DNA of 64,000 bases from Siderastrea radians (lineage: Eukaryota > Cnidaria > Anthozoa > Scleractinia > Rhizangiidae): the NCBI GenBank assembly GCA_964017195.1, contig OZ024887.1, positions 1,670,501 to 1,734,500 of the forward strand, written 5' to 3'. Position 1 is the first letter of the stretch. Each line of letters opens with the position of its first letter. Made by a program: the position numbers and the translations under genes. Positions 27,504-62,014 of this stretch are shown here, in pieces. The notes beneath the pieces are model-generated. The model was not told the origin of the DNA, did no database searches, and saw nothing but the letters and a program-made list of their open reading frames with translations.

Positions 27504-28430
27504 TCAACTTACTACTGAACTGCCTTCGTGATTCACAAAGCAGTTTGGCTCGTGCTCATTGAACCAGGCAAGGTACTCCAGCCAGCTGACGTCCCCGTCA
27601 CTCCTTTTCTTTTCCATTTTCTTGCACTCACGGCAAGAAGAACTCATGTGAACGACATCGACCACCTTTCCTGTATCAACTGAAATGGCTGCTATCACAG
27701 CATCGGTGGCTGTCCAGCCTCTTGAGCACCAAGAAGCATCGATCGTGACACCAGCGTCGACCACAGCATCATCGAGCTCTTCGAGAGAACAGTGCACCTC
27801 TCCCAGAGAAAACTTCCATTCTTTCACACCACGAGCTGCACGATTTAATTCTTCCTCGAGTAAAGCCCGGGCATCCCTTTCGATAGTTTTGGTTTGTGCA
27901 GCCCACCAGCTCTTGCTGATGGGTGCCAGACCAAGAAAACTAAGAAATTTTGAGGCCGCAGCGTGACCACAACCGGTGGCTCGAAGGCCAAGGACAGTTG
28001 CCCGATTCTTCAAAGCCCTTTCGCTTCTCCGTTGTTGTAAATGCTGAATTAGTGCTCTGCGACAGGCAGCTTTTATTTTGGCATTGAAAAATCCAAGAAG
28101 ACCCAAGTCCATTTCTAGCCGACACGTTTTCCATTATCTCAACATCTCCTTGGCAAAAGCGACACGCTACTGCTTCGCTGAGATGTTTTTGCAGTCTCTC
28201 GCCCGAAACAATGGCCCGACCATTCATTTTCATCCAAGTTTCTTCAGCGTCAGTTTCCTCAGGATTTCCACGGATTCATTTAACTGTATTTTTGTGCGGC
28301 TCGCGCTCATCTGATCGACTATCTGCTCGCTCACTTCTCTATTGTTTACACGTTCACTTCCACTTCTTCGAGCAATTCCTGCTGGTTGTAATACAACCCT
28401 CTGTCGCTTGCAGCTAAAATGGCTGCACAT
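27504..28430 (-). pseudogene. Mutator-like transposase (invertebrate 'Mutator' domain), frameshifted
   Basis: Frame 27504-28112 carries T-I-D-A-S-W-C-S-R-G-W (catalytic Asp region), then G-K-V-V-D-V-V-H-M-S-S-S-C-R-E-C-K (zinc-binding pair) and N-H-E-G-S-S at the end. These are hallmarks of the transposase domain annotated as Mutator in cnidarian and arthropod proteins. Frame 27940-28233 supplies the preceding zinc ribbon (C-R-F-C, then C-Q-N-K-S-C). A basic segment at 28230-28430 may be its N-terminus. Frame changes near 28.05 and 28.23 kb indicate a pseudogene, and the remaining C-terminal domain is missing. Confidence 0.65.
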
Positions 28431-46110: not shown

Positions 46111-47538
46111 GTTAACATCGACTGGGCCGAAGAAGGGTAAGTAATGACAGAGTCTCAAACTTGCCAATGTTAACGACATCGGCAAGAAGCGGGTTAAGTG
46201 GTAACACAAAGACAAAAGTTTCTCAAAATTCTTACTTACTCTGACAATCTTTGCTATTTTTCTATAGAGCACTAGAATAGTGTCCATAACCTAGTAGATA
46301 CTATTTATGGGATCTCTAACATACGAAGAGATACAGTTGCAACAATTTTGGAGAAAGCCGTTATTCGGCAACAACTGCATTGTAACCGAGTGTGACAGCG
46401 AGCGTAAAAATTTTGACGTCTTCGCCTTTTTCATAATCAGAAATGGACAAACATTGTGAATAAAAGGGCAAGAATTAAAATCATGCCTCAGTAGTTGCCC
46501 AGCTTTACTTCTACGGCTGTATTTCAACAGCTAACCGGCTGCAAATTTGACGGTTCGGTGACGGCTTCTATCAATTTCGACGTCTTCTTTCGTTCAAAAA
46601 GGGCAGTTAACACAAATGTGTTCTGCCTTTACCTACCGATGTTTAGCACTCAAGTCAACAAATTGTGGGGCTCAACAATTTTTGGTTGTATGCTTGTCTC
46701 CCAGTACAAAAAGCAGACCAGCTGAGGTAACGGAATTCGTCCACGTAGTCATATATGACCATTTTGTTTCTGGAGAATGCCAGTGCACCCTATGTTCCTG
46801 GTTGGCCTAAGAGGAACTTGAGGTGTTTCTCGACGTCTGTGTAAGCTGTAACATAGTTGTCACTATGCACAAACTTTGAACCAATGTCTTATTTCAATTT
46901 TGTTTTTGTCTTTTTTAATGCTTCCACAATAGGATTCCTTGTAAGAAAGAAGAATGTTGTTACTAAAATTAGTTATTGCCCATGGGCAATAGTCCAATGC
47001 ATATAACAGGCCAAAAATTCACCCCAAGGCTCATTTGCATAAAATTTCATAAAACCGTTTTGGCGGTTTTCTTTTCTTTTTTTCATCTTTGCTGCTTTTA
47101 CAACAGCTAAAAAATGTCAGTGGTTAGGTCTGTGGAAATATTTACATAATGGCAACCTGCTCGACAACATTTTCATAGCAGGCTGGTATAATTAAGGTTG
47201 TATCAAGAGGGGTTTTATCTATAGCCTTGCTACCCCCCACCCCCCTTCCCTACGTGAAAGTCATGGATCTGTCCTCACCAAAAAACTCAATAGTAGATGA
47301 ACAGTCATCATGAGTCTCCGTGCTCTGGTTAAAAATACCCAGGGCAGTCACTTAGCTTTCTGTTTTTGTATAACTAATTACATTTTTCTCCTTGCAGGTG
47401 AATAAAATTATAATGCTGCTACTGTATAGACCTTTTCAAGGTTAACGCCGCCATTTTGCCGGGGGTGCAAAACTACTGGGGCGAGCGCGCGGCCGAGCAT
47501 AAAATGCAAATGGCGACATGGCTGAATAATCTGTTATC
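46111..47538. other. No recognisable gene; probable 5' flank of the THAP transposase element
   Basis: No supported frame. The element ends of the adjacent transposase were not identified. Confidence 0.3.
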
Positions 47539-48962
47539 ATGCCAAAACACGCTCGTTGTGCGGTAGGATTTTGTGATAATGACAAAAGGTATCCTGAACT
47601 GGCTTATTTTAGATCCCATGTGGAGAATTTCACATATCACAAGTGGCCAGTCGACCCAAAACTCGCCGAAATATGGCGAAAGCAAGTAGCAAAGACACGA
47701 GGTGATATATTTAATCCTTCTCCTGGAGCTAGTGGGACTTTCGTCTGTTCAAATCATTTTCCACTGGGAAGAAGAACTCTTGAAGACCCTAAAACGGATT
47801 ACCCGTCGGTTTTTATGACTGTTTCCGATTATCTCCAAAAAAAATCACCTAAGAAAAGGAAAGCAAACAAGTTGCAAGAAGCCGGTCCTTCAAGATGCTT
47901 GTTGCCCAGCTTCAAAGAGTCAAATGAGGATGGTGAGGGAAGTGACGATACTGATGATGAAATGGAGACAGATACGGACTACTGTGTTTCAGTTCCTATG
48001 CAGTTCGAACAGCTAACAAGAGAAATGGAAGTTAAGGTGTATACAGGTCTGCCCTCAACTGAAACATTCAGGTTTTTATTCGATTATCTCAGTGAAAAGG
48101 CTCGGTTTATGCAATATTGGAGGGGTGGAAAGCAGACAACGAAAGAATCACCTCAACCACCTTCTCCTTTCGAGTTAGCTACTGGTTTTGTTAAAGGAAG
48201 ACCTGGGCCAGAAAGGAAGCTTAGACTCGAGCAGGAATTTTTGTTGACTCTAATGAAACTTAGACTTGCTCTTTTAACTATTGATTGGGGTTTCAGATTC
48301 CACGTTTCAGCTACCACTGTCAGTAGTATTTTCATTACTTGGGTCAAGCTTATGTCCAAGGAACTGTCAGTTTTAAATGTGTGGCCTAGTCGACAACAGG
48401 TTGAGAAAACCCTACCATCTTGTTTCAGAAAGCTATATCCCAAAGTAAGATGCATTATTGACTGCTTTGAGTGCTTCACAGAGACTCCAAGTGGACTTGA
48501 TTTGGCAGCAACTCTATGGAGTGAATATAAACATCACTACACTTTTTCAAAGTCCTTGTTGCAATCACCCCAAATGGAGCTATTTCGTATGTCTCCTCAT
48601 GTTATGGAGGCAGGGCATCTGATGTTTTTATTGTGAGAAACAGTGGATTTTTAAACATGGTTGAACCCTATGATGAAATCATGGCAGACAGGGGTTTCAA
48701 GATCAGAGAAGACTTGATGATGCACATGGCAACATTATGCATTCCACCTAGTTGTGCGTCATCTATGCAGCTGTTACCACGTGATGTCAGAGAAACATCA
48801 AACATTGCAAATGTCAGAATCTATGTGGAGCAAGCCATTGGACGACTGAAAGTGTTTCTCCTTCTCAAAAATGAACTGCCTATTACCCTGCTCCCCCTGG
48901 CTGATGATATTGTTTGTGTCTGCTGCTCTTTGTGTAACTTGCTTCCACCACTCTGTGTCTAA
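47539..48962 (+). pseudogene. THAP-domain PIF/Harbinger-type DDE transposase with a one-base deletion
   Basis: Residues 1-95 form a THAP zinc finger (C7, C12, C70, H73), a DNA-binding module. Residues around 165-200 (V-K-V-Y-T-G-L-P-S) and the helix-turn-helix (F-H-V-S-A-T-T-V-S-S-I-F) precede a DDE_4 domain. Its Asp residues are in R-C-I-I-D-C-F-E and I-M-A-D-R-G-F, and its Glu is in Y-V-E-Q-A-I-G-R-L-K. The frame changes inside the T-run at 48541-48546, where one T appears to be missing, and continues to 48962. This could be a real lesion or a sequencing error. It lies directly left of the viral element. Confidence 0.75.
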
Positions 48963-49170
48963 TATTTTTGTTTACAAATACGCTATCATGATTATAAAGT
49001 ACAGACTGGGTAGGTTTTTATTAGAAATGTTTTAAACTACAAATTACCAAGTAGAGTACCATAACAGTAGTAATGTAGGCTGGTTGAGGGTGATTTACCT
49101 CGCTTTCATGTTCCAAAAAACCTCGCTTTCATGTTGGGTCTCGATGTGAGGTCGAGGCATAGGGGAAATA
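48963..49170. other. Junction between the transposase element and the viral element
   Basis: The viral terminal inverted repeat would be expected here or slightly further left. It cannot be defined because the other end is outside the window. CCTCGCTTTCATGTT occurs twice at about 49099-49137. Confidence 0.3.
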
Positions 49171-49676
49171 CGTCACGAGATCTTAGGTTTATTATTAATT
49201 ATGATTGCATTGGTTTGTTTGTCGGTAACGGCGTCATTTTGGTTCATGTCTGAAGCGTGTAAGGGTGAAATTATGAAGCCACGTCGAAGACCTTTGCGAT
49301 GTTTGGATTCTTTTCAGAATATTTTTGGACGAGAAGCATTGCGTTTAATAACAAGACCCGAGAGATCACATTTGGCTCGATTGGCCGAGAGGATCAGAGA
49401 AAGAAGAGAAGAAACGTGGCGTACGTCACGAGATCTTAGGTTTATTATTAATTATGATTGCATTGGTTTGTTTGTAGGTAACGGCGTCATTTTGGTTCAT
49501 GTCTGAAGCGTGTAAGGGTGAAATTATGAAGCCACGTCGAAGACCTTTGCGATGTTTGGCTTCTTTTCAGAATATTTTTGGTCGAGAAGGATTGAGTTTA
49601 ATTACAAGACCCGAGAGATCACATTTGGCTCGATTGGCCGAGAGGATGAGAGAAAGACGAGAAGAAACTTGGCGTG
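49171..49676. repeat. 253-bp tandem duplication covering a gene start
   Basis: The segment starting CGTCACGAGATCTTAGG at 49171 is repeated from 49424 with few differences. Both copies contain the upstream sequence and first about 60 codons of the same gene. Only the second copy continues into the full gene. Confidence 0.85.
49246..49506 (+). CDS. Truncated duplicate of the 167-aa accessory gene
   Basis: This frame begins at the ATG of the first tandem copy and matches the first 58 residues of the gene at 49499 with four or five substitutions. It then runs out into the upstream sequence of the second copy, giving 86 residues with an unrelated hydrophobic tail. It is probably a by-product of the duplication. 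Confidence 0.5.
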   Translation: MSEACKGEIMKPRRRPLRCLDSFQNIFGREALRLITRPERSHLARLAERIRERREETWRTSRDLRFIINYDCIGLFVGNGVILVHV

Positions 49677-50002
49677 TATTGAATCGAGATCGCGTGGCGG
49701 CTTTTATTGAATTGGTGACCCTTGTCTGGGTCGATGAAGAAAATTGCATCCGTCACGCTTCAGAGAGAGGAACTGCGGATGAATCCCTCACGTGGACATT
49801 ACTGAATCATGTGTTGCCATTTTGTTCACGACATTGCAACGACTTTTCAACGGTGGCAAAGTGGGCAAGACCGATGTTTATGAAAGACTTTGAAAAAATG
49901 AGAACGTGTTTGGATGTTAAATTTCCAGACTTGCGTGAAACATCGAGACATTGGCGTAAGGTTTGTCATTATTATGAGGGAATATGGAAAGACAATCAAT
50001 AA
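49499..50002 (+). CDS. Accessory protein of unknown function, 167 aa
   Basis: The start is the ATG at 49499, conserved in the upstream tandem copy. The protein is basic at its N-terminus (K-P-R-R-R-P-L-R) and then mostly helical, with an Arg/Glu-rich amphipathic stretch (about residues 40-60). It ends in a Trp/His/Tyr-rich segment (H-W-R-K-V-C-H-Y-Y). No known domain is recognised. It is the outermost gene on the left flank of the viral element and converges on the RVRF-motif gene, with which it shares a short 3' intergenic space. Confidence 0.55.
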   Translation: MSEACKGEIMKPRRRPLRCLASFQNIFGREGLSLITRPERSHLARLAERMRERREETWRVLNRDRVAAFIELVTLVWVDEENCIRHASERGTADESLTWTLLNHVLPFCSRHCNDFSTVAKWARPMFMKDFEKMRTCLDVKFPDLRETSRHWRKVCHYYEGIWKDNQ

Positions 50003-50310: not shown

Positions 50311-50991
50311 TTACAAATGAAGTCCTTCCAGCTCTAGTCTTACTTGCTCAATGTTTTCGGATAGACAGAATGTTCTCTGGAACAAGTTCTTGATTGCTGC
50401 CCTTGTTGTAGGAGTAATGTCTCGCGAACCAACCACAGCACTGCTCTGATGAAGGGTGGGTAGTCGAAGAGTGCCCCAGGGTTTAAATGATGTCACTTTT
50501 TTGAGACAGGAGTTTTCGATGTTGTAGGTATTTTCTGACCGATACCACTGATTGGTGTTGGTGTCAAACAGGAAGACTTCTTTACCCTGATCTATGGCTA
50601 ATTGCACAGTCCACCCAGTTCCTCCTTCCACTCTTTTTTTGTCTGCACACAGTTTTCCAAAGGCAAAGACGGTATGGGCTTTTCTGGCAATGTGGTAATT
50701 GCGCTGCAAGAGGGAGAGAGTGTAAAAGTGAGTTGGAACACGTTTACACAACTTGTGAGCAGCAGCACCTATGGCAGGATCGGCTTGTATCAACACTTCG
50801 ACAGAAGCAGGTGAAGTGAACTTTGCACGGGGATGATTTGGCGGAACAATCACTTCAATTTGCATTCCATATTCCCTGGCCATTTCCTCTGCTAGGGTGT
50901 CTGTTCCGTCTGCACCCCCCGTATACAATACATGTCCATGACCAATAGTCAATTGCATTTCTTCTTCATTAGTCATCATGTTTGGAGGCAT
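50311..50991 (-). CDS. SLOG-superfamily (YspA/DprA-like) nucleotide-binding protein, 226 aa
   Basis: The start is the ATG at 50991. Residues 20-132 form a Rossmann-like SLOG domain: strand V-L-Y-T then G-G-A-D-G-T-D (25-31), a second strand I-E-V-I-V-P, R-N at 97-98, V-F-A-F-G-K, and G-G-T-G-W-T (123-128) before a helix and a final strand. These are the ligand-binding positions of YspA-type SLOG proteins. Such domains bind nucleotides or nucleotide-derived signals and are known mostly from bacteria, phages and TRPM channels. The C-terminal 70 residues are unassigned. It is transcribed from the divergent promoter shared with the GRF gene. Confidence 0.75.
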   Translation of the reverse strand: MPPNMMTNEEEMQLTIGHGHVLYTGGADGTDTLAEEMAREYGMQIEVIVPPNHPRAKFTSPASVEVLIQADPAIGAAAHKLCKRVPTHFYTLSLLQRNYHIARKAHTVFAFGKLCADKKRVEGGTGWTVQLAIDQGKEVFLFDTNTNQWYRSENTYNIENSCLKKVTSFKPWGTLRLPTLHQSSAVVGSRDITPTTRAAIKNLFQRTFCLSENIEQVRLELEGLHL

Positions 50992-51379
50992 TTTACCTGA
51001 GTTCTCTCTCTCTCTTCTTCGTCTTTTTTGAGAATGAAGAAACAAGTTAAGAAAACACCGAATTTATGGACAAAATGATCAAGTGAAACAACCAATCAGA
51101 AAAACAGTTTCCTTATATAGGCAAAGCGTGGGGTATTGAGGAACCAATGAAAAAACATATTAACTGACCAATTGGAAACAGTTTTTCCTTATATGGTTAA
51201 TGTGAGAGGTATTTTCTGACCAATGAAAAAACAGAACGAAAGGAACCAATCGCGATTAAGTATGTCCTTATATGGATATTTGATCAAGTTTTGAAAACCA
51301 ATCAGAATTAAAAGTGATTGTATAAAGGACGACTAAGTTGAAGGGAAAAATCACAGTTGAGAAGAGAAGTTTCAGAAAG
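50992..51379. promoter_or_regulatory. Divergent promoter with repeated CCAAT and CCTTATATGG boxes
   Basis: CCAAT occurs at 51092, 51144, 51168 (within palindromic CCAATTGG), 51220, 51246 and 51298. CCTTATATGG occurs at 51187-51196 and 51266-51275, with CCTTATATAGG at 51111-51121. CC(A/T)6GG is the serum-response-factor CArG box. The boxes alternate at roughly 75-bp intervals. TATAAAG at 51321 sits about 60 bases before the GRF gene ATG. On the minus strand the 51111 box reads CTATATAAGG and could be the TATA box of the SLOG gene. Confidence 0.7.
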
Positions 51380-52600
51380 ATGGCTGAAGTCGAATTTGTT
51401 GGCGAAGTGCCTTCCAGAAAGAGAAAAGGTGGTTCTCACACGGACAAGAACAAGAAGAAGAAGAGAGAGCCCACGATTGAAATTCTTGAGAGCCCGATCG
51501 CCCCTGTTGAAGTTCAGTCACCTGCTGAAGAGGAAACGGCTGCGGCTGTTCAAGAGTTGTTGAACGAATTGAACCAAATTCAAGTTGAAGATTATTCAAC
51601 TCCTTTGGAAAACGTGGCTGCTTTTACGTTCGACAACAACAGCTCTGAAGAAAAAGAGAAAGTCGCTGATGAGAAGAAGAATGAAATGTCTCTCGATGAG
51701 CGTTTCAAGAAGGCAGTGAAGTCTGTGGAGGTCTTTGACACCGTGGAAGATTTTGAGAAATACCTTGATGGTGAAAAGAGAAAAGCGCTCAAATCTCGAA
51801 TGATGTGCAAAAAACTAGAATCAGAGGATTCCGATGTGGACTACGGCAACGTGTCCCCGGTGCCTGGTGTGATTCCAAAGTTGAACTCAAACCTCAAACC
51901 CAAAAAAACAAAAGAGGACGACGGATTGGCAAGAATGGTGAGACTGAGTACCATGTTCCAAAGCCCGGGATTTCTGAAGGACAAACCCTCCCCAAAAGTG
52001 CAACCCCCACCCAACAAGACTGACTACATGGTTTGTCTGCGACACGACGTGCATTTGGAGAAACGAGTGTCCAAAGGGGGATGGCATTACGTGAAATGTC
52101 CCAGACAACCCTGCCTCCTCTTTTGCCCTGAAGATAGTGCTGAAGAGTACATGAGACAAGTGTACAGGAATGTCCACCCCACCATTTGCGATAAGTGGGA
52201 AACCCTGGTCTGCTTCTGTCGTCAACCCGTTACCATTCGTCAAAGTAGTTCAGAGAAGAACCCTGGACGATTGTACGTTGGTTGTTCCAGTTCTGGAAAA
52301 AAGTGCAAGTTCTTCAATTGGACCGATCTCCCCCTGACTGAAAAGTACCTGAAATGGTTTGACGAAAAAAAAGATCTCCCTCAAGTCAATGGAAACACAT
52401 GGGGGGAACAGTTTACAGAGAAAGATCTGCAGTTGTTGAGAGCCATCAAAGAAAAAGACCGAGTGGTCGATAATGTGGTATCACCATCAGTACTGTCACC
52501 ACCAGCACTTCCACCACCCAAGTACTCAGATAGAGAAGACGTGTGGAGGCGAACCCTTGCTTCTGCACGATGGGGAGGACGATCAGACTATGCTGCCTGA
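51380..52600 (+). CDS. GRF zinc-finger protein, 406 aa (probable early regulatory protein)
   Basis: The start is the ATG at 51380 (M-A-E-V-E-F). The N-terminal half is charged and low-complexity, with a basic K-N-K-K-K-K-R nuclear-localisation-like stretch. Around residues 217-255 there is a C-x2-H...G-W-H-Y-V-K-C-P...C-L-L-F-C zinc module. At about 277-315 follows a GRF finger: C-F-C, then N-P-G-R-L-Y-V-G-C and C-K-F-F-N-W. GRF fingers bind single-stranded or structured DNA/RNA. The tail is Pro-rich. A polyadenylation signal AATAAAG lies at about 52668. A role in DNA replication or repair is inferred. Confidence 0.7.
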   Translation: MAEVEFVGEVPSRKRKGGSHTDKNKKKKREPTIEILESPIAPVEVQSPAEEETAAAVQELLNELNQIQVEDYSTPLENVAAFTFDNNSSEEKEKVADEKKNEMSLDERFKKAVKSVEVFDTVEDFEKYLDGEKRKALKSRMMCKKLESEDSDVDYGNVSPVPGVIPKLNSNLKPKKTKEDDGLARMVRLSTMFQSPGFLKDKPSPKVQPPPNKTDYMVCLRHDVHLEKRVSKGGWHYVKCPRQPCLLFCPEDSAEEYMRQVYRNVHPTICDKWETLVCFCRQPVTIRQSSSEKNPGRLYVGCSSSGKKCKFFNWTDLPLTEKYLKWFDEKKDLPQVNGNTWGEQFTEKDLQLLRAIKEKDRVVDNVVSPSVLSPPALPPPKYSDREDVWRRTLASARWGGRSDYAA

Positions 52601-52691
52601 TTGACATGAACTGATTTGAATTGTTTTATTATTTTGAATGTATCTTTTAAAAGTGTGTGTAATGAGAATAAAGATCATTTTGAACGAAAAA

Positions 52692-53042
52692 ATGGAAAGT
52701 GTTTTCATGCGTGTTGCATGGGACTGTTTGTGGGAATGGGGAGGATCTCTTGTGCAATGGGTTTGTCACAAGTCCCTTTGTCAGTGTTTGTACGAAAGAC
52801 AAGAAGAAGAAAATAGGATACCCATTCCCGATTATGTTGACGAGACACACCCGCTCCAAGTTTTTGAAGAAACCCATGTCGAATTGAATTTGTACCGTTG
52901 GATGGTATTTGTGTTGTGGTTGCAACATCATCCTGACGCTTGGCGCTGGTATCGAATCATTCAAAAGACGCACCCCTCTCGTATTCCTTCAATACCTACC
53001 CTGTTGAATGAGCTATGGCACCTCGAAAGAAGAAGTCCGTGA
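52692..53042 (+). CDS. Trp-rich accessory protein of unknown function, 116 aa
   Basis: The likely start is the ATG at 52692. An in-frame ATG at 52638 lies within the preceding gene's 3' region, before its AATAAA. The product is rich in Trp (W-D-C-L-W-E-W, then W-M-V-F-V-L-W-L, W-R-W-Y) and has one hydrophobic helix around residues 70-82. No domain is recognised. Its last 28 bases overlap the integrase-domain gene. Confidence 0.5.
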   Translation: MESVFMRVAWDCLWEWGGSLVQWVCHKSLCQCLYERQEEENRIPIPDYVDETHPLQVFEETHVELNLYRWMVFVLWLQHHPDAWRWYRIIQKTHPSRIPSIPTLLNELWHLERRSP

Positions 53043-53266
53043 AAAAAGTATCCGTGGCACAAGCATTGCTCAAGCGTTATCACGATCCAAAAGCGAAGGG
53101 TAGTTTGGGAGGAATTCAAAGATTTGCCAAGGCATGGGGAGTACCGTTGAAAGTGGCACAGAATCTATTGAAGCGGGATTTAGCTTACACCCTGCATAAA
53201 CCACGCCGACGTCGTTTTCCATTGCACCCATTCATATTAACCCCGGTTTGCGTCAAGTGTGTATGA
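53015..53266 (+). CDS. Free-standing integrase N-terminal domain, 83 aa
   Basis: The product resembles the DNA-binding N-terminal region of Polinton integrases: L-L-K-R-Y-H-D-P-K-A-K-G-S-L-G-G-I-Q near residue 18, then Y-T-L-H-K-P-R-R-R-R-F-P near residue 60. The frame ends about 15 residues later with no catalytic D-D-E core. The true integrase gene is elsewhere (its C-terminus is at 63797-64000, opposite strand), so this is a separate short gene. It might bind element DNA or modulate integration. It overlaps the preceding gene and has an ATGA overlap with the next. Confidence 0.7.
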   Translation: MAPRKKKSVKKVSVAQALLKRYHDPKAKGSLGGIQRFAKAWGVPLKVAQNLLKRDLAYTLHKPRRRRFPLHPFILTPVCVKCV

Positions 53267-53760
53267 TATTGGATATCGAAGGTTTCGTTCTCCGAGGGAA
53301 TAGAGTGATTGTTCGCGAAGTGGGATGGTGCGACATGAATGGATTTTCGGATAGCTTTCATTTTAAACCTGAAGTTCAATACAACTCTTTATCTCCGAGG
53401 GATAAGCGGACTGTGAGTTACGTGTTCCACAACATCCACGCGCTTCCTTTTGAAGCACGCTCACAAGAGAATGCCGCCGAGGGGTATTTGGTCGAGTTTG
53501 TAGTGAAAACGTTGCACGAGAAACTCTCTTCCCTCGATAAAGATGTCGCCTACAAGGGAGGAACAATTGAAAAACAGTTATTGTCCCGATTGAATATTCC
53601 ACACGTTGATTTGGAAGCTTATGATTGTCCCAAAGCCAACTGTTTGCTTTGGAACGGATTCGAACCTCTTTTTGATTGTGGTCATCACACTCATTCTCAT
53701 TCCCATTGCCCTCGAGTGGAAACGTATTTGTTTTACCAATGGATGACTTGTCATTCTTGA
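53263..53760 (+). CDS. Possible DEDD-nuclease-like protein, 165 aa
   Basis: The start is the ATG at 53263, overlapping the previous stop as ATGA. The N-terminus I-L-D-I-E-G-F followed by R-E-V-G-W-C-D resembles the first strands of RNase H-fold DEDD exonuclease-like proteins with an early Asp-x-Glu. Around residue 105 comes A-Y-K-G-G-T-I-E-K-Q-L-L. A C-G-H-H-T-H-S-H-S-H-C-P cluster near residue 145 suggests metal binding. Similar uncharacterised proteins occur in insect and cnidarian repeats, so the fold call is tentative. A GTGAGT at 53413, at codon phase 0, could be a donor to the downstream mini-exon array. Confidence 0.5.
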   Translation: MILDIEGFVLRGNRVIVREVGWCDMNGFSDSFHFKPEVQYNSLSPRDKRTVSYVFHNIHALPFEARSQENAAEGYLVEFVVKTLHEKLSSLDKDVAYKGGTIEKQLLSRLNIPHVDLEAYDCPKANCLLWNGFEPLFDCGHHTHSHSHCPRVETYLFYQWMTCHS

Positions 53761-53775
53761 TAGGTAATGGAAGAA

Positions 53776-53805
53776 ATGAACACGTACCAGAATATCTGGC
53801 ATTGA
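53776..53805 (+). pseudogene. Mini-exon unit 1 (9 codons)
   Basis: YAG at 53761-53763, ATG at 53776. The frame ends right after W-H, the first conserved residues, so the CxxC part is missing. This is a degenerate unit. Confidence 0.55.
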
Positions 53806-53843
53806 TAAAAAAACTTTTGTTATTTAAATAGGTGATTAAAGAA

Positions 53844-53996
53844 ATGGAGGCGTCAATGATTTGGTGTTCTTATTGTCATCAATTTCACTATGAAAAACAT
53901 TTGGAAGACGAATGTCAACATCGTCGTTTTTTATGTGGTGCTCTTCGTGCCAGAAGTGTTGCGTTTTTAATGACGAAAAGCTTTTGTGATTTTTGA
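53844..53996 (+). CDS. Mini-exon unit 2: 50-aa CxxC peptide
   Basis: YAG ends at 53831 and ATG is at 53844. The peptide has I-W-C-S-Y-C-H-Q-F-H-Y-E-K-H near its start, then C-Q-H-R-R-F-L-C-G. That gives two Cys pairs and several His residues, compatible with one zinc site. Its stop overlaps the next unit's acceptor tract (TTTTGATAG). Confidence 0.6.
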   Translation: MEASMIWCSYCHQFHYEKHLEDECQHRRFLCGALRARSVAFLMTKSFCDF

Positions 53997-54011
53997 TAGG
54001 TGTTGGAAGAA

Positions 54012-54146
54012 ATGGAACTGCCAACAACATTGATTTGGTGTTCTTATTGTGAACAATATCACTTTAAAAAACATTCAGACAATAAACCCGAGATGATGTG
54101 GTGTTGGCTGTGTTGTGCACATCATCCATTTATTCGAATTTATTGA
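54012..54146 (+). CDS. Mini-exon unit 3: 44-aa CxxC peptide
   Basis: YAG ends at 53999 and ATG is at 54012. The first pair I-W-C-S-Y-C-E-Q-Y-H-F-K-K-H is clearly related to unit 2. A second Cys cluster, M-W-C-W-L-C-C-A-H-H, follows. Together they could form a small zinc-binding fold. Confidence 0.6.
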   Translation: MELPTTLIWCSYCEQYHFKKHSDNKPEMMWCWLCCAHHPFIRIY

Positions 54147-54166
54147 CTTTGTAGGTGATTTCAGAA

Positions 54167-54272
54167 ATGTGGTCATCGTCTTTTTTTCCGTCGGTGCTAT
54201 TGGTGTAATAGATATCACCTGTTGGCATCTACTCGATTACTGAAAAGGATTTGTGACGATCTTTTCAGGTGA
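54167..54272 (+). pseudogene. Mini-exon unit 4, frame-shifted after the ATG
   Basis: YAG ends at 54154 and ATG is at 54167, but the ATG frame gives only 13 residues. The related Cys segment (C-G-H-R-L-F-F-R-R-C-Y-W-C-N-R-Y-H) is intact in the next frame and ends in the unit 5 acceptor. One base change in length separates the two. Confidence 0.5.
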
Positions 54273-54475
54273 TGACCCAAATGACAAAGGAAAAGTGGCA
54301 TCGCTTTAGTTGTGTTCGATGTGAAATTGATTTTTATTGTAAATTTCAACGGTGGAAAAAACAAGTGGCTATTGTACGCATGATGAGAGTGTATTTGAAA
54401 AGTAAACGAACTTGTTTCTTATCGTTTTCAGGTCCACGTTCAGATGGACTTCTTACTCGATTGGCATTACTCTAA
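54272..54475 (+). CDS. Mini-exon unit 5: 67-aa WH-CxxC peptide
   Basis: YAG ends at 54268, and the conserved-position ATG is 54281, with an in-frame ATG at 54272. The motif is W-H-R-F-S-C-V-R-C-E-I-D-F-Y, followed by a basic helix. The frame runs through the acceptor of unit 6. Confidence 0.6.
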   Translation: MTQMTKEKWHRFSCVRCEIDFYCKFQRWKKQVAIVRMMRVYLKSKRTCFLSFSGPRSDGLLTRLALL

Positions 54476-54581
54476 GTGTCATCAGTGTTACTTTAGGTTT
54501 AGACACATTTATAAAAATAAACAGAATTTCTCGTATTATTCCACATTATCCGACATGGCAGATTGTAAGTTTAAAACGTAG
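54444..54581 (+). CDS. Mini-exon unit 6: 45-aa WH-CxxC peptide
   Basis: YAG ends at 54431 and ATG is at 54444. The motif is W-H-Y-S-K-C-H-Q-C-Y-F-R-F-R-H, then a basic/aromatic tail. Its first 25 bases, from TTTTCAGGTCCACGTTCAGA, are identical to unit 7, a sign of recent duplication. Confidence 0.6.
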   Translation: MDFLLDWHYSKCHQCYFRFRHIYKNKQNFSYYSTLSDMADCKFKT

Positions 54582-54596
54582 TACACATGATGAGAG

Positions 54597-54728
54597 TGTT
54601 CAGGTCATGAGTGTCATGAGTGTGTCATGAGTGTCACGAGTGTCATGAGTGTTCATGAGAGTGTTCAGGTCATGAGTGTCATGAGTGTGTCATGAGTGTC
54701 ACGAGTGTCATGAGTGTTCATGAGCGTT
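54597..54728 (+). repeat. Two 64-bp tandem units built of TCATGAGTG sub-repeats
   Basis: GTTCAGGTCATGAGTGTCAT, continuing in TGAGTG repeats, occurs twice between units 6 and 7. It contains further CAGGT motifs and could expand or shrink the array. Confidence 0.75.
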
Positions 54729-54745
54729 TTCAGGTCCACGTTCAG

Positions 54746-54793
54746 ATGGACTGCTTTTTCATTCAATATTATTCATCATTATTATACGTTTAA
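54746..54793 (+). pseudogene. Mini-exon unit 7 (15 codons, degenerate)
   Basis: YAG ends at 54733 and ATG is at 54746. It shares the start of unit 6 and then diverges to a short hydrophobic peptide without the CxxC. Confidence 0.5.
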
Positions 54794-54848
54794 AACATAA
54801 AGATCGTTTTTAGAAGACACTACTTGTTCTTTTTAGGTTCACATACAA

Positions 54849-54905
54849 ATGGATGCCTTGTTTTAAGTATTGGCTGATCTCGAGAATGAAATGATGTAAT
54901 GTTTG
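54849..54905 (+). pseudogene. Mini-exon unit 8 (degenerate)
   Basis: YAG (TTTTTAG) ends at 54836 and ATG is at 54849. The ATG frame stops after five codons. A neighbouring frame reads W-M-P-C-F-K-Y-W, a remnant of the motif. Confidence 0.45.
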
Positions 54906-54947
54906 ACTGCGAACTTTAAAAATGTATTTTTTCAGGTGCAAGACGAA

Positions 54948-55145
54948 ATGAAGAATTCTCCAAAGTGGCACCGTTTTCGTTGTTTGCCATGTGAATTGAA
55001 ATTTCAACGTAATTTTTCATTCTCAACAAAGATGTTAATTTTGAAACGCTTGTTGAAATTATGTTTTGGTTGTGAGCGTCCACTTCAATTGTCCTCCGCA
55101 GGTTCATTTACAGATGACCTCTTCCGTGAGTTGGCATCGCACTGA
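54948..55145 (+). CDS. Mini-exon unit 9: 65-aa WH-CxxC peptide
   Basis: YAG (TTTTTTCAG) ends at 54935 and ATG is at 54948. The motif W-H-R-F-R-C-L-P-C-E-L-K-F is very like unit 5. A basic helix and a second pair, C-F-G-C, follow. The frame runs through the acceptor of unit 10. Confidence 0.6.
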   Translation: MKNSPKWHRFRCLPCELKFQRNFSFSTKMLILKRLLKLCFGCERPLQLSSAGSFTDDLFRELASH

Positions 55146-55242
55146 ATGTTCCCATTGTTATGTCAAGTTTTTGCAAACTTTGAGACGCGCCAAGTTGCTG
55201 AGATTAAGAAAACATGATGTTAAGAAAAGTTTGTTTTATTAA
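55114..55242 (+). CDS. Mini-exon unit 10: 42-aa WH-CxxC peptide
   Basis: YAG (CTCCGCAG) ends at 55101 and ATG is at 55114. The motif is W-H-R-T-E-C-S-H-C-Y-V-K-F, followed by an Arg/Lys/Leu helix. Confidence 0.6.
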   Translation: MTSSVSWHRTECSHCYVKFLQTLRRAKLLRLRKHDVKKSLFY

Positions 55243-55250
55243 TTTTTCAG

Positions 55251-55544
55251 GTGCACCAACAAATAGAATTTGGCATATCTATTTGTATGTGTTCCCCGAA
55301 ACATATTTCTAAAGAAGCCAATTTTTGGAAAAAGTATGAAGGTATTATTCAAGGAGTGGGTATCAAAGGAATAGGAATTAGGAGTGTTTTAGAAAGGCGT
55401 GGATGGAGAGGTAAAAGAGTTGAGTGGGAAAAGTTGACTGGCTGTAAAATGTATGCCCAATGTAGATGTTGTAACTGTAGTGATAGGAATTGCGAGTGCA
55501 ACTGTTGTAACATTGTATTCAATTACAATAAAGTGTTGAAATGA
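55251..55544 (+). CDS. Mini-exon unit 11: last, Cys-rich exon (85 aa from the ATG at 55287)
   Basis: YAG (TTTTTCAG) ends at 55250, and ATA replaces ATG at 55263. The frame is open from the acceptor (V-H-Q-Q-I) to 55544, so a spliced product could use all 97 codons. The first ATG in frame is 55287. A Gly/Arg-rich middle is followed by a C-R-C-C-N-C...C-E-C-N-C-C cluster of nine cysteines. The W-H remnant is in another frame. AATAAA near the stop (about 55528) may end the transcription unit. Confidence 0.55.
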   Translation: MHQQIEFGISICMCSPKHISKEANFWKKYEGIIQGVGIKGIGIRSVLERRGWRGKRVEWEKLTGCKMYAQCRCCNCSDRNCECNCCNIVFNYNKVLK

Positions 55545-57267: not shown

Positions 57268-57509
57268 CGTTTCCCACGCTTTCGGCGTTTGTAAAATTTG
57301 ACATTGTCAGTGATGCCTTTTAAAGCTTGGGATCCCAATTTGCCAAAGGCTGTGGCAAACGTAGGAGCCGGTCCGGCTAGAAACATGCTCATTCCCTCAG
57401 CAATTTTGTCCACTGTTCGGGGTTTGCGTCGAATCAGAGCACCACCTCTTTGTACCCTTCTTCCTTTTCTTCTTTTTCCTCTTTTTTGTTTGCCCCGTCG
57501 GACGACCAT
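57264..57509 (-). CDS. Small basic virion-type protein, 81 aa
   Basis: The ATG at 57509 lies in a perfect ACCATGG context. The product is Arg/Lys-rich at both ends (R-R-G-K-Q-K-R-G-K-R-R-K-G-R-R and F-Y-K-R-R-K-R-G-K-R) with an amphipathic middle (A-E-G-M-S-M-F-L-A-G-P-A). It resembles the small core or membrane-lytic peptides of adenovirus-like virions. The start lies inside the end of the two-TM gene in another frame. Confidence 0.55.
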   Translation of the reverse strand: MVVRRGKQKRGKRRKGRRVQRGGALIRRKPRTVDKIAEGMSMFLAGPAPTFATAFGKLGSQALKGITDNVKFYKRRKRGKR

Positions 57510-58141
57510 GGTGTAGAAAGTGGCAGTGGTGGATGGGAGCACTTTTTTTTATCCTTTTCCTCCCAATGACTTTTGGACATCAAGGGTCTAGATCGGCCGT
57601 CAACGTAGCATTGTCCGCTCACTGATCGATACCGATGTAAACGAAGATACTTCTGTACACAATATTTAGGCAAGGGGGGTGTAAAGTCGATGATAGTGTC
57701 ATCCAAGGTTTGCATCTTGACTAAAAACCCTTCCAAACCCTCTGGTGGCAAACCACGCACAAACGTACGCAACTCGATCAAAGTTTTGGCATAGGTGGTG
57801 AAGGCAAATCGACTCATCTCTTCTTTGAAACGATAGTTTTTGAAATCATTCCATCCTTTGACAACAGTTCCAACCGCAGCCAAACAAGTCACCAGTATGA
57901 CGTTTTCCAGAACGGGACCCACGATCGTTCCAATGGCCACCAGCAACAAGGCCAACCCGTTGAACAGAGCATTGCGACATTTGAAATGATTCAACATATT
58001 TTTGTAACACCACCATTGTTTGTGGTAGAAAGCATACAACGAGTCCATGCGTTGCAATAGTTCTGGTTCCAGTTTGGAGGCATTGTAAGTTGACTGTGGG
58101 TCGTTTACCAGAGACACTACAAGTTGCTCCTTGGAACTCAT
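57434..58141 (-). CDS. Two-TM, SLATT-like late protein, 235 aa
   Basis: The start is the ATG at 58141. After 55 residues of amphipathic helix come two closely spaced hydrophobic helices (about 58-77 and 79-95). Then follows K-G-W-N-D-F and a helical region F-A-F-T-T-Y-A-K-T-L-I-E-L-R. This layout resembles the SLATT fold of two-TM proteins known from bacterial defence and some viral proteins. The resemblance is by eye. The last 50 residues are low-complexity and overlap the next gene. It is probably a membrane protein. Its position within the late block argues for a virion or entry role. Confidence 0.55.
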   Translation of the reverse strand: MSSKEQLVVSLVNDPQSTYNASKLEPELLQRMDSLYAFYHKQWWCYKNMLNHFKCRNALFNGLALLLVAIGTIVGPVLENVILVTCLAAVGTVVKGWNDFKNYRFKEEMSRFAFTTYAKTLIELRTFVRGLPPEGLEGFLVKMQTLDDTIIDFTPPLPKYCVQKYLRLHRYRSVSGQCYVDGRSRPLMSKSHWEEKDKKKCSHPPLPLSTPWSSDGANKKEEKEEKEEGYKEVVL

Positions 58142-58149
58142 TTTGCTGT

Positions 58150-58512
58150 TCACGTCGAAAGTCGAGATGAATTGGTTTGCACCGAAGGACTACCGCCCTG
58201 TTTATAACTTGTCACTATACTATTGGTCATGGTGATGTTTTTGATTTCTCTCCCCTGTGCTAATTGTTCTTGGTCTTGCATTAACATCTGCAAACGGCGC
58301 TGTAAATCAGCCTGATTCAAATTTCTCGGGTGATACGATGGTGTTGAGTTTTGACTTCGGGGTGAAATTGGTGAAGAGTGCAACGGTCTTCTTGTCAAAC
58401 CTCCCCTTACGCGTGGTCCATGACCTCTCCGGGCTCCTGGTACTCTTGCACGAGGAGTACTGCTGCGACTTCGACTTTGACTCCTACTTCGACTTCGGTT
58501 GTTTCTATTCAC
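58150..58512 (-). CDS. Arg/Ser-rich continuation frame downstream of an in-frame TGA, about 120 aa
   Basis: This frame is in the same phase as the gene at 58534-58842 and is separated from it only by TGA at 58534-58536. It has no early ATG; only GTG at 58512 or a Met about 77 residues in. The start is an R-S-R-S-Q-S-R-S repeat, followed by Gln-rich helix L-Q-R-R-L-Q-M-L-M-Q-D-Q-E-Q. It is probably the C-terminal half of the upstream protein, either expressed by readthrough or cut off by a nonsense mutation. Confidence 0.5.
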   Translation of the reverse strand: MNRNNRSRSRSQSRSRSSTPRARVPGARRGHGPRVRGGLTRRPLHSSPISPRSQNSTPSYHPRNLNQADLQRRLQMLMQDQEQLAQGREIKNITMTNSIVTSYKQGGSPSVQTNSSRLST

Positions 58513-60363: not shown

Positions 60364-61752
60364 TTAGTGTATGTAGATGTCGTACAGCACAGCTCCGTTC
60401 TTGTCGATCTCAATGAGATTCTCAAATTCTCCGTAGACGATTACAGTTATATTGCTGCCTGGTGCTGCTCGGAATTCGAGCTTCAGTTGAAGGTCTCCAC
60501 TTTGTCTGGGGTTGAGATTGGCACTGTCGGCACAACCACTGGCTACATTGTCAAACATGAACAGAGTGCATCCTTTGCCTTGCCCCCAGTCATCTTGTTC
60601 GACCATGTTTCCTTTCATTTTACACACAACACCACTGGCTAGCAGAAATCTAAAGTATCCCAACAGATCTTTGGAGGAGTTGTTGCCCACCAGCTGGAGG
60701 GTTTCATAGGGATATTCTTCCCCTTTCACAATCTGCTTGATGGAAGTCAACTGAAATTTCTGAAAGCAGAAGGGATCTCGGGTGACTGCTCCATTGAACG
60801 CACGGCTGTCCACTAGACCAACAATCATTCTGTCAGGCACTCGGTTTTGAAACAGGTTAGGTATGTCAAAGCGAGTCAGGGCCCCATCCATGCTGAAGGT
60901 TCTGATTTCACTACGAACAGTGGGATAAACAGCAACTTCACCGTCTTCCCTCTTGGCACTCAGATTCATGAAAACGGTTTCATTCAGCCTCAGTTGACAC
61001 ATGTGAAACCGAATTTTGATATCAGCTTCATTCAAACGCGCTGCCAAACCAACTCCATTCATGAAGAGATTGGGGCTATTGAAATGAAATTTCATTTTTA
61101 TTTCCACTCCAGGCACCAACACTTTGCCAGTGTGAAAGACTTCCAAATGCGGTTTGAAAACCAAAGATCTTGTCCTTCCTCCAGCATACTCAGCAGTTTC
61201 AGCAATCATGGCATCCAGAGTGTTTTTCTGATTCTGGGGCAAATCAGTGTAATGTTGATGAGGTCCTGTCTTGTTGGTGTTGTTGGCTGTCCACTCGGGG
61301 GGAGAATCCAATGCATTGTACCATCCACTTGGTCTCAAGATGGTTTTACCATCGGCTCGGTCAAAGTTGAGAAGAGATTCAAAGTAAGCCTTGTAGTGGT
61401 ACGTGTCCGATTGTGGGCTGATCAAAGTTCCATTCAAGTGCAAATCGATTTGTTTGATAATGGTGTGGGCCAAATTGTTGGCAGGCCACAATTTTTCAGC
61501 ATCAACCAAATTTCCCCCATCGTCTTTTTTCAATGCCAATTCCATGGTGAAGTAACTCCTTCCCAAATCGGTAAAACCATCCAACCCAGGAATGACAAAT
61601 TCCATGGGGTTAATGCCTGTCGTCGTTGGTTGAATGGTAACCATTCGATAGGCAACCGTACTGATGTCTGTTTTTGGAACCTTGAACAGATTGAGAGCAC
61701 CATTCGTCGTTCCCTCAGACATGTTGTGAGTCGCTATGGTATTTTCAGTCAT
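60364..61752 (-). CDS. Major capsid protein (double-jelly-roll, hexon-like), 462 aa
   Basis: Features of double-jelly-roll capsid proteins are present. Near residue 52 is F-V-I-P-G-L-D-G-F-T-D-L (first jelly-roll start). Around 95 is I-I-K-Q-I-D-L-H-L-N-G-T-L-I. A second set of strands follows mid-protein (F-R-F-L-L-A-S-G-V). The C-terminal strand is V-I-V-Y-G-E-F-E-N-L-I-E-I-D, a typical ending. Related animal proteins are often annotated as F54H12.2-like. Trimers of such proteins build the icosahedral shell. It lies between the small basic genes and the protease, as in other adintoviruses. Confidence 0.82.
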   Translation of the reverse strand: MTENTIATHNMSEGTTNGALNLFKVPKTDISTVAYRMVTIQPTTTGINPMEFVIPGLDGFTDLGRSYFTMELALKKDDGGNLVDAEKLWPANNLAHTIIKQIDLHLNGTLISPQSDTYHYKAYFESLLNFDRADGKTILRPSGWYNALDSPPEWTANNTNKTGPHQHYTDLPQNQKNTLDAMIAETAEYAGGRTRSLVFKPHLEVFHTGKVLVPGVEIKMKFHFNSPNLFMNGVGLAARLNEADIKIRFHMCQLRLNETVFMNLSAKREDGEVAVYPTVRSEIRTFSMDGALTRFDIPNLFQNRVPDRMIVGLVDSRAFNGAVTRDPFCFQKFQLTSIKQIVKGEEYPYETLQLVGNNSSKDLLGYFRFLLASGVVCKMKGNMVEQDDWGQGKGCTLFMFDNVASGCADSANLNPRQSGDLQLKLEFRAAPGSNITVIVYGEFENLIEIDKNGAVLYDIYIH

Positions 61753-61756
61753 TTTT

Positions 61757-62014
61757 TCAGCGCCGTTGTCTTCTTCTTCTCGGTCTTTTTCGTTGACTAC
61801 TAGTACCTCTTCTACGTTGGGAACGGTTTTTATACTTTCCCCGTGCGAGCAATCTTGAGAAGTCGTAGCCAGGAGGTCGACTTACGTCTTGACTTATCCA
61901 TCCCCCTCGCTGTCGAGGCATTTTCAAAATTTTCCACCATGGTACAAATCCACCACGTTGAGGCAGTCCTCTTTCACTTCGAACGCGTCGAACCCTCGAA
62001 GGAATCGGTTGCAT
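61757..62014 (-). CDS. Small Arg-rich core-type protein, 85 aa
   Basis: The ATG at 62014 follows the previous stop by two bases. The product is extremely Arg/Lys-rich, ending R-R-R-G-T-S-S-Q-R-K-R-P-R-R-R-R. P-G-Y-D-F-S-R-L-L-A-R near residue 47 may be a maturation or folding segment. It resembles adenovirus core proteins that condense DNA. Gly-Gly contexts could be protease sites. Function is inferred from composition and position. Confidence 0.6.
   Translation of the reverse strand: MQPIPSRVRRVRSERGLPQRGGFVPWWKILKMPRQRGGWISQDVSRPPGYDFSRLLARGKYKNRSQRRRGTSSQRKRPRRRRQRR

Follow-up and report, generated by a model that had tools for sequence, protein, structure and literature searches.

How might one gene of a DNA virus come to carry a set of interchangeable C-terminal ends? 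The question is raised by a 64,000-nucleotide stretch of the Siderastrea radians genome (contig OZ024887.1; the whole stretch is called the window), in which an adintovirus-like element contains a row of eleven splice-acceptor-like sites, each leading into a short reading frame. The first-pass annotation of the window proposed that one upstream donor is joined to different small zinc-binding tails. Based on the window and 30 further copies of the element in the same genome, we consider it likely that the row supplies phased alternative tails to a common coding exon through the choice of splice acceptor.

The sites are described by a strict motif, YAG/GTN-N6-[GC]A[AG]-AT[GA], where the slash marks the predicted exon boundary. 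The motif occurs 11 times between 53761 and 55544 on the forward strand, within ~1.5 kb; the rest of the 64-kb window has none on either strand. The sites start at 53761, 53829, 53997, 54152, 54266, 54429, 54731, 54834, 54933, 55099, and 55248. In order-1 Markov simulations (n = 2000), the strict motif occurred 0.009 times on average and at most once, odds that are flattering because the motif was derived from the same 11 sites. The looser pattern YAG-N12-ATG was observed 12 times, whereas simulations averaged 1.1 and never exceeded 7. When spacings of 0-60 were considered, the runner-up 2-kb cluster in the window held 7 sites. As annotated, every unit consists of a YAG, 12 bases, and an ATG (ATA in the last), and the 12 bases read V-x-x-(E/Q) in phase in 11/11. 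All four third bases occur among the Val codons; codons 2 and 3 are variable, and codon 4 is Glu or Gln. The acceptor is TAG in the five units reported earlier, namely units 1, 2, 3, 4, and 8.

Splice-site scores, which are approximate, place the array acceptors at the 87th-100th percentile among 1595 YAGs. A gradient of acceptor strength along the array was rejected (rho 0.2, p = 0.56). All 11 sites read AG/GT, and four would regenerate a passable donor (scores 5.9-7.0), as expected if the sites served recursive splicing or spliced-leader trans-splicing. The other 7/11 score below 4 as donors, and neither process explains the Glu/Gln-Met hinge or the matching upstream exon described below; we regard both as highly improbable. 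The term mini-exon, under which the units were first described, is likewise wrong, since no unit contains an internal phase-0 donor scoring at least 4, if the GT in its first codon is set aside. A chain of mini-exons joined into one protein was rejected on this ground. To judge from their sequences, the units are instead alternative acceptors of one predicted 3'-terminal exon. The features of the array are as follows.

53761..53805 (+), unit 1: TAG acceptor, 13-codon tail
53829..53996 (+), unit 2: TAG acceptor, 54-codon CxxC tail
53997..54146 (+), unit 3: TAG acceptor, 48-codon CxxC...CxxC tail; paralogue of unit 2
54152..54208 (+), unit 4: TAG acceptor, 17-codon tail; 38 codons in most other copies having unit 4
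54266..54475 (+), unit 5: CAG acceptor, 68-codon WH-CxxC tail; end overlaps the unit 6 acceptor in a different phase
54429..54581 (+), unit 6: CAG acceptor, 49-codon WH-CxxC tail; type multiplied in other copies
54590..54736 (+), 65-bp tandem repeat, 2.3 copies: two decoy YAG-N12-ATG sites at 54601 and 54666, which read VMSV and are not units
54731..54793 (+), unit 7: CAG acceptor, 19-codon tail; start shared with unit 6
54834..54866 (+), unit 8: TAG acceptor, 9-codon tail
54933..55145 (+), unit 9: CAG acceptor, 69-codon WH-CxxC...CxxC tail; paralogue of unit 5
55099..55242 (+), unit 10: CAG acceptor, 46-codon WH-CxxC tail; apparent purifying selection
55248..55544 (+), unit 11: CAG acceptor, 97-codon Cys-rich tail, unlike the other tails; ATA here, ATG in most copies
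55527..55532 (+), AATAAA, probable common polyadenylation signal within the last codons of unit 11

Two further AATAAA motifs occur, at 54081 in unit 3 and at 54516 in unit 6. Read in the phase of their acceptors, the window tails average 44 codons, as compared to 18 for any position (p = 5e-5). A CxxC is present in 7/11 tails in this phase and in 0/11 in each of the other phases. The tails fall into the paralogue families {2, 3} and {5, 6, 9, 10}, with unit 11 standing alone; kinship between units 5 and 6 is weak (14/300 shuffles). At least six W-(H)-CxxC tails had been claimed, and units 2, 3, 5, 6, 9, and 10 fit that description, with 42-65 residues counted from Met. The common start of units 6 and 7, previously taken as a sign of duplication, is 88% identical over 42 nt. 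Zinc binding by the CxxC tails is putative: the predicted tail model has low confidence (predicted local distance difference test, pLDDT, 59.8), and a tail profile run against solved structures yielded only matches with E values of 0.23 and 0.79.

The array in other copies of the element

A search of the host genome (805 Mb, 439 contigs) returned 92 matching places, some of which are pieces of one copy. Thirty stretches from these places, designated here by L numbers, were picked by position and identity and read. All were picked via a match to the array, so the sample is biased, and the copies are related, so unit counts are not independent. Strict units were found in 30/30 copies, with 4-12 per stretch and 256 in total; the opposite strands of the 30 loci contained one match in 219 kb. 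No relative with the flanking genes and without the array, an outcome named beforehand as refuting, was seen among the 30 copies, though these had been chosen by array match. L024 and L038 each contain two arrays, and some copies have lost acceptors. No relative outside the host was detected in viral contigs, in genome contigs, or by tblastn of phages.

The reading phase seen in the window holds across the 256 units. The mean open length was 47.3 codons in frame 0 as compared to 15.4 and 14.6 in the other two frames, and 195 units contained CxxC in frame 0 as compared to 1 and 4. Unit starts were also located by tail homology alone, which gave 304 rows, of which 35 out-of-register rows were dropped by eye (22 obtained via one query and 13 via two others). 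The 269 remaining starts have AG in 264, Val in 266, and Glu/Gln in 266; the start codon is ATG in 265, ATA in 2, and TTG in 2. The ATA was dropped as proof that unit 11 has no start codon: most copies have ATG, and ATA says little because it is confined to the window copy and L009.

Selection on the tails was evaluated as the ratio of nonsynonymous to synonymous substitution rates (dN/dS) between copies, using 11 representative sequences, pairs with at least 6 changes, and at most 14 pairs shown per unit; the ratios carry no formal test of being below 1. The values were 0.21-0.45 for unit 2 (6 pairs), 0.19-0.41 for unit 10 (14 pairs shown), and 0.26-0.96 for unit 11. For unit 5, they were 0.22-0.29 in 10/14 pairs and 0.72-1.03 in comparisons with L034 and L035. 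Units 3, 6, and 9 gave 0.18-1.05; one pair in unit 3 and one in unit 6 yielded no ratio. By these ratios, the tails are coding, some well constrained and some changing fast. Diversifying selection, which had been suggested as a test, is not what the comparisons indicate, as dN/dS is mostly below 1.

The partner exon and its proposed products

The gene preceding the array begins, in most copies, with an exon that is absent from the window. This exon ends in phase 0 at a donor, AAG/GTANGT, located at codon 71-90 of the exon's ATG frame. The usual form is AAG/GTATGT, with GTAGGT in L026 and GTACGT in L035 and L036. The donor was aligned at 21 places in 20/30 loci and is intact at 20, down to ~70% identity. 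Among 68-103 GT sites, it ranks first by score in 18/20 loci and second in L033. In 17/20 loci, the 71-90-codon ATG frame is open; L018, L029, and L032 have a short or broken one. At the exon end, only 19/42 third positions match between L030 and L035, yet AAG/GTA is preserved. For the first exon, dN/dS was 0.10-0.28 in 16/21 pairs and 0.84 in one with four changes; dS was saturated in four. Measured in this way, the first exon is under purifying selection. The predicted intron, from the donor to the first unit, spans 295-830 bases. The proposal that one upstream donor serves different small Cys tails thus finds support in a conserved phase-0 donor, a selected first exon, and arrays in 30/30 copies. 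It does not extend to the window's own copy, which is without the donor exon.

An arrangement like that of the adenovirus late genes would place an untranslated leader at each acceptor, with each tail starting at its own ATG. An ATG at a fixed distance in 265/269 unit starts agrees with this, and in a human adenovirus the leaders are joined to acceptors that lie before AUGs, by 16-146 nt in pVII, according to the part of the source available (PMC5429599). Also in keeping with it, a small open reading frame (ORF) with a mostly phase-1 donor precedes exon 1 in some copies. Against this arrangement, the 12 bases that precede the ATG have the character of coding sequence (Val with any third base, Glu/Gln, and C at the -3 base in 6/11 window units), and the highest-scoring donor terminates a coding exon that is under selection, in the phase that the tails need. 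We therefore consider an untranslated leader unlikely.

The small ORF has 99-130 codons and was seen in L009-L012, L016, L018, L019, and L033; it has a conserved CTT/GTGAGT donor, and in each of these copies a TATA motif precedes it by 37 bases. The one such ORF scanned matched no Pfam family. Its donor was rejected as a partner of the tails, being in phase 1, which is wrong for them, in 7/8 copies listing the donor within the ORF.

Under the reading that we favor, a coding exon with alternative tails, the array would provide a single early viral gene with its alternative 3' end. The gene would start with the 71-90-codon exon and its strong phase-0 AAG/GTANGT donor. Unspliced RNA would yield a protein combining a zinc motif and an exonuclease fold. 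Spliced RNA would join exon 1 to one of several acceptors beyond the exonuclease gene, yielding short proteins that comprise the common N-terminus, the hinge V-x-x-(E/Q)-M, and one tail, most with CxxC. The hinge would extend the presumed last helix of the exon, and one polyadenylation site would probably be common to all forms. Tandem duplication would add units, and decay would remove them.

The likeliest job for the short products would be that of a swappable adaptor, in which the constant end recruits host machinery and the variable ends choose targets. This job is proposed because the N-terminus weakly resembles PRANC and F-box sequences; the end of the first exon looks F-box-like by eye. 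Pfam listed no F-box family in the 10 proteins scanned, and PHROGs returned nothing beyond weak matches for exon 1. With all PRANC matches below the cut-off, the adaptor idea serves as a lead only. The fuller picture, an animal DNA virus locus that fits an adaptor, perhaps F-box-like and ubiquitin-recruiting, with any of ~4-12 target-binding tails by acceptor choice and that forms new tails by tandem duplication, is one that we entertain as possible and hold tentatively.

Several observations weigh against these readings. The donor exon was not aligned in 10/30 loci within the stretches read. In L015, the first intron base of the donor is changed, yet this locus has the longest single array, with 12 units including six of one type in tandem. 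Because 10/30 copies show no exon 1 with its donor and L015 has lost the donor, arrays appear to outlive the exon. No joined isoform occurred among 15 homologues of the exonuclease gene or 10 of the GRF zinc-finger gene that lies upstream in the window. Four window tails have only 9-19 codons. Long readings are not confined to frame 0: those of at least 40 codons number 159, 47, and 3 of 256 in frames 0, 1, and 2. Some tails are near-neutral, with dN/dS of up to 1.05 in unit 6, 0.98 in unit 9, and 1.03 for unit 5 versus L034. The informal footing of these ratios and of the splice-site scores counts on the same side. As to the adaptor, Pfam listed PRANC for 5/10 proteins scanned, the best at 18.2 bits (E 0.0033) versus a cut-off of 25.8, and a PDB search with the first exon gave no match.

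The window copy and the surrounding element

In the window copy, two genes lie upstream of the array.

51380..52600 (+), GRF zinc-finger gene: Pfam match at the cut-off; phase-0 donor at 51938
53223..53760 (+), remnant of the partner gene (predicted exonuclease fold): first exon and donor missing upstream of ~53223

Of the L030 query, only the final part aligns with the window (at 53223-53257), and the canonical gene is matched from 53223 on. Because the window copy has lost its first exon, its array is probably orphaned, driven at most by the GRF gene now upstream. A short ORF at 53015-53266, which adjoins the rearrangement point near 53223, may encode an integrase-like N-terminus. A candidate donor at 53413, within the exonuclease gene, was rejected, as its Ser codon is not retained in relatives.

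In the initial model, the GRF gene was the normal partner, with its donor at 51938 (ATG/GTGAGA) joined to the tails. This donor is in phase 0, scores highest among the 291 GT sites from 51320 to 55250, and is kept in 4/4 other copies with that arrangement; M-V-R is found in 7/10 homologues. However, the full-length gene adjoins the array in only 4/30 other copies (L023, L025, L028, and L037), the diverged copies carry the AAG/GTANGT exon, and phase 0 arises by a one-in-three chance. This partnership is thus very unlikely as the general rule, and the other copies indicate that the GRF donor is at most a stand-in in a rearranged lineage. The region before the GRF gene (51187-51326) contains two perfect CArG boxes, CCAAT motifs, and TATAAA.

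The loss of exon 1 from the window copy, tails of fewer than 20 codons in 4/11 units, and the loss of acceptors or donor in some copies would also be seen if the arrays were relics, that is, duplicated tail exons lying unused in decaying proviruses. For the window copy itself, this may well be true. For the element at large, we judge it quite unlikely in light of the purifying selection on exon 1 and several tails and the retention of donor and acceptors at ~70% identity.

The C-terminal part of the long product is predicted to have an exonuclease fold (53248-53757, pLDDT 91.2), its best PDB match being RNase T (E 5.8e-5, template modelling (TM) scores 0.56/0.48). The fold also matches a protein of Drosophila-associated adintovirus 2, at rank 4 (TM 0.78/0.80). 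Neither a J domain nor an SF3 helicase, which would mark a polyomavirus-type T antigen, was matched by Pfam in this product. The same fold is structurally like ichnovirus proteins (GfV, AsIV).

By its predicted gene content, the element is adintovirus-like. A type B DNA polymerase (DNA_pol_B_2) lies upstream and divergent in 2/2 ORFs scanned (L026 and L035), at 56.6 and 31.6 bits versus a cut-off of 25.8. The window contains an adenain-type protease (Peptidase_C5, 21.7 bits versus a cut-off of 21.3), a candidate FtsK/A32-like ATPase (Pox_A32, 22.3 bits, just below the cut-off of 22.8), and a PLA2-like protein. An rve integrase was not found among the ORFs scanned with Pfam, no test aimed at it having been made. 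The region at 60367-61881 matched no Pfam family and no PDB entry; it is a tentative hexon candidate, and the penton label is likewise provisional.

Other features were noted within or beside the element. On the reverse strand, 50314-51063 encodes a SLOG/DprA-like protein (DNA_processg_A, 23.9 bits versus a cut-off of 29.6), and 57437-58189, in the same element, has a weak SLATT_1 match (16.9 bits versus a cut-off of 26.3). A 253-bp tandem duplication occupies 49169-49675, and the ORF at 49478-49999 also starts just after a TAG with a Val codon, possibly another duplicated acceptor. Beside the element, 47530-48633 encodes a THAP domain with HTH_Tnp_4 and a weak DDE_Tnp_4 match. Further away are a Mutator-like transposase (27504-28112) and reverse-transcriptase fragments (10.4-17.4 kb).

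Comparison with known systems

Poxvirus ankyrin/PRANC adaptors combine a short F-box-like end, which recruits host ubiquitin machinery, with a variable target-binding part. In poxviruses, the variable part consists of ankyrin repeats in separate genes, whereas in the viral array it would consist of alternative tails of one gene, the similarity being below the cut-off.

Among systems of similar setting, the nearest is polyomavirus large T/small t, in which a viral transcript gives a common N-terminus and alternative C-termini by splicing, small t having zinc-binding Cys clusters (the part of PMC2868895 available). That early region makes few products and has no array, and no sequence relation was seen. 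Adenovirus leader splicing is similar in joining one donor to many acceptors near an ATG (PMC5429599, in part). Its leader is untranslated and its distances vary, whereas in the viral array the exon is coding and the distance is fixed. Adintoviruses have small motif-bearing accessory genes, of which Oncoid is defined by short motifs only (passages of PMC11071296 and PMC10812802). For the adintovirus penton, a preprint proposes alternate, sometimes Cys-rich C-termini via frameshifting (PMC11071296, in part). The passages on accessory genes in these two sources describe no array. Similarly, no such array in a virus was described in the titles and abstract openings of the openly licensed literature searched.

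If the proposed splicing occurs, the virus packs C-terminal diversification into a ~2-kb row of acceptors whose unit number varies between copies in one genome. The locus would then be a natural experiment on how the spliceosome chooses among near-identical competing acceptors and on the rate at which a virus acquires, retains, and discards docking modules. ORF-based annotation would miss such genes, whose tails are short and whose first exon sits one gene further upstream. With many related copies in one genome, the question can be tested using host RNA reads.

In layout, the nearest system is that of mod(mdg4) and lola of Drosophila, in which a common upstream coding part is joined to one of many alternative 3' exons, which determine the C-terminus, with more than 30 isoforms at mod(mdg4) (the part of PMC12692577 available). 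The earlier view that the array form is new thus holds for viruses within the searches made and not in general, arrays of alternative 3' exons being known in mod(mdg4). The viral array fits this layout in that its numerous alternative 3' ends all share a phase, which an upstream donor matches. The Drosophila loci differ in being cellular and in using trans-splicing, with 3' exons that have their own promoters and lie partly on the other strand (PMC12692577, in part). The viral array, known from DNA alone, is on one strand, spans ~1-2 kb in most copies, and varies in unit number between copies. If its splicing and the adaptor role are as proposed, it would be a viral counterpart of mod(mdg4) and lola: a library of exchangeable targeting modules.

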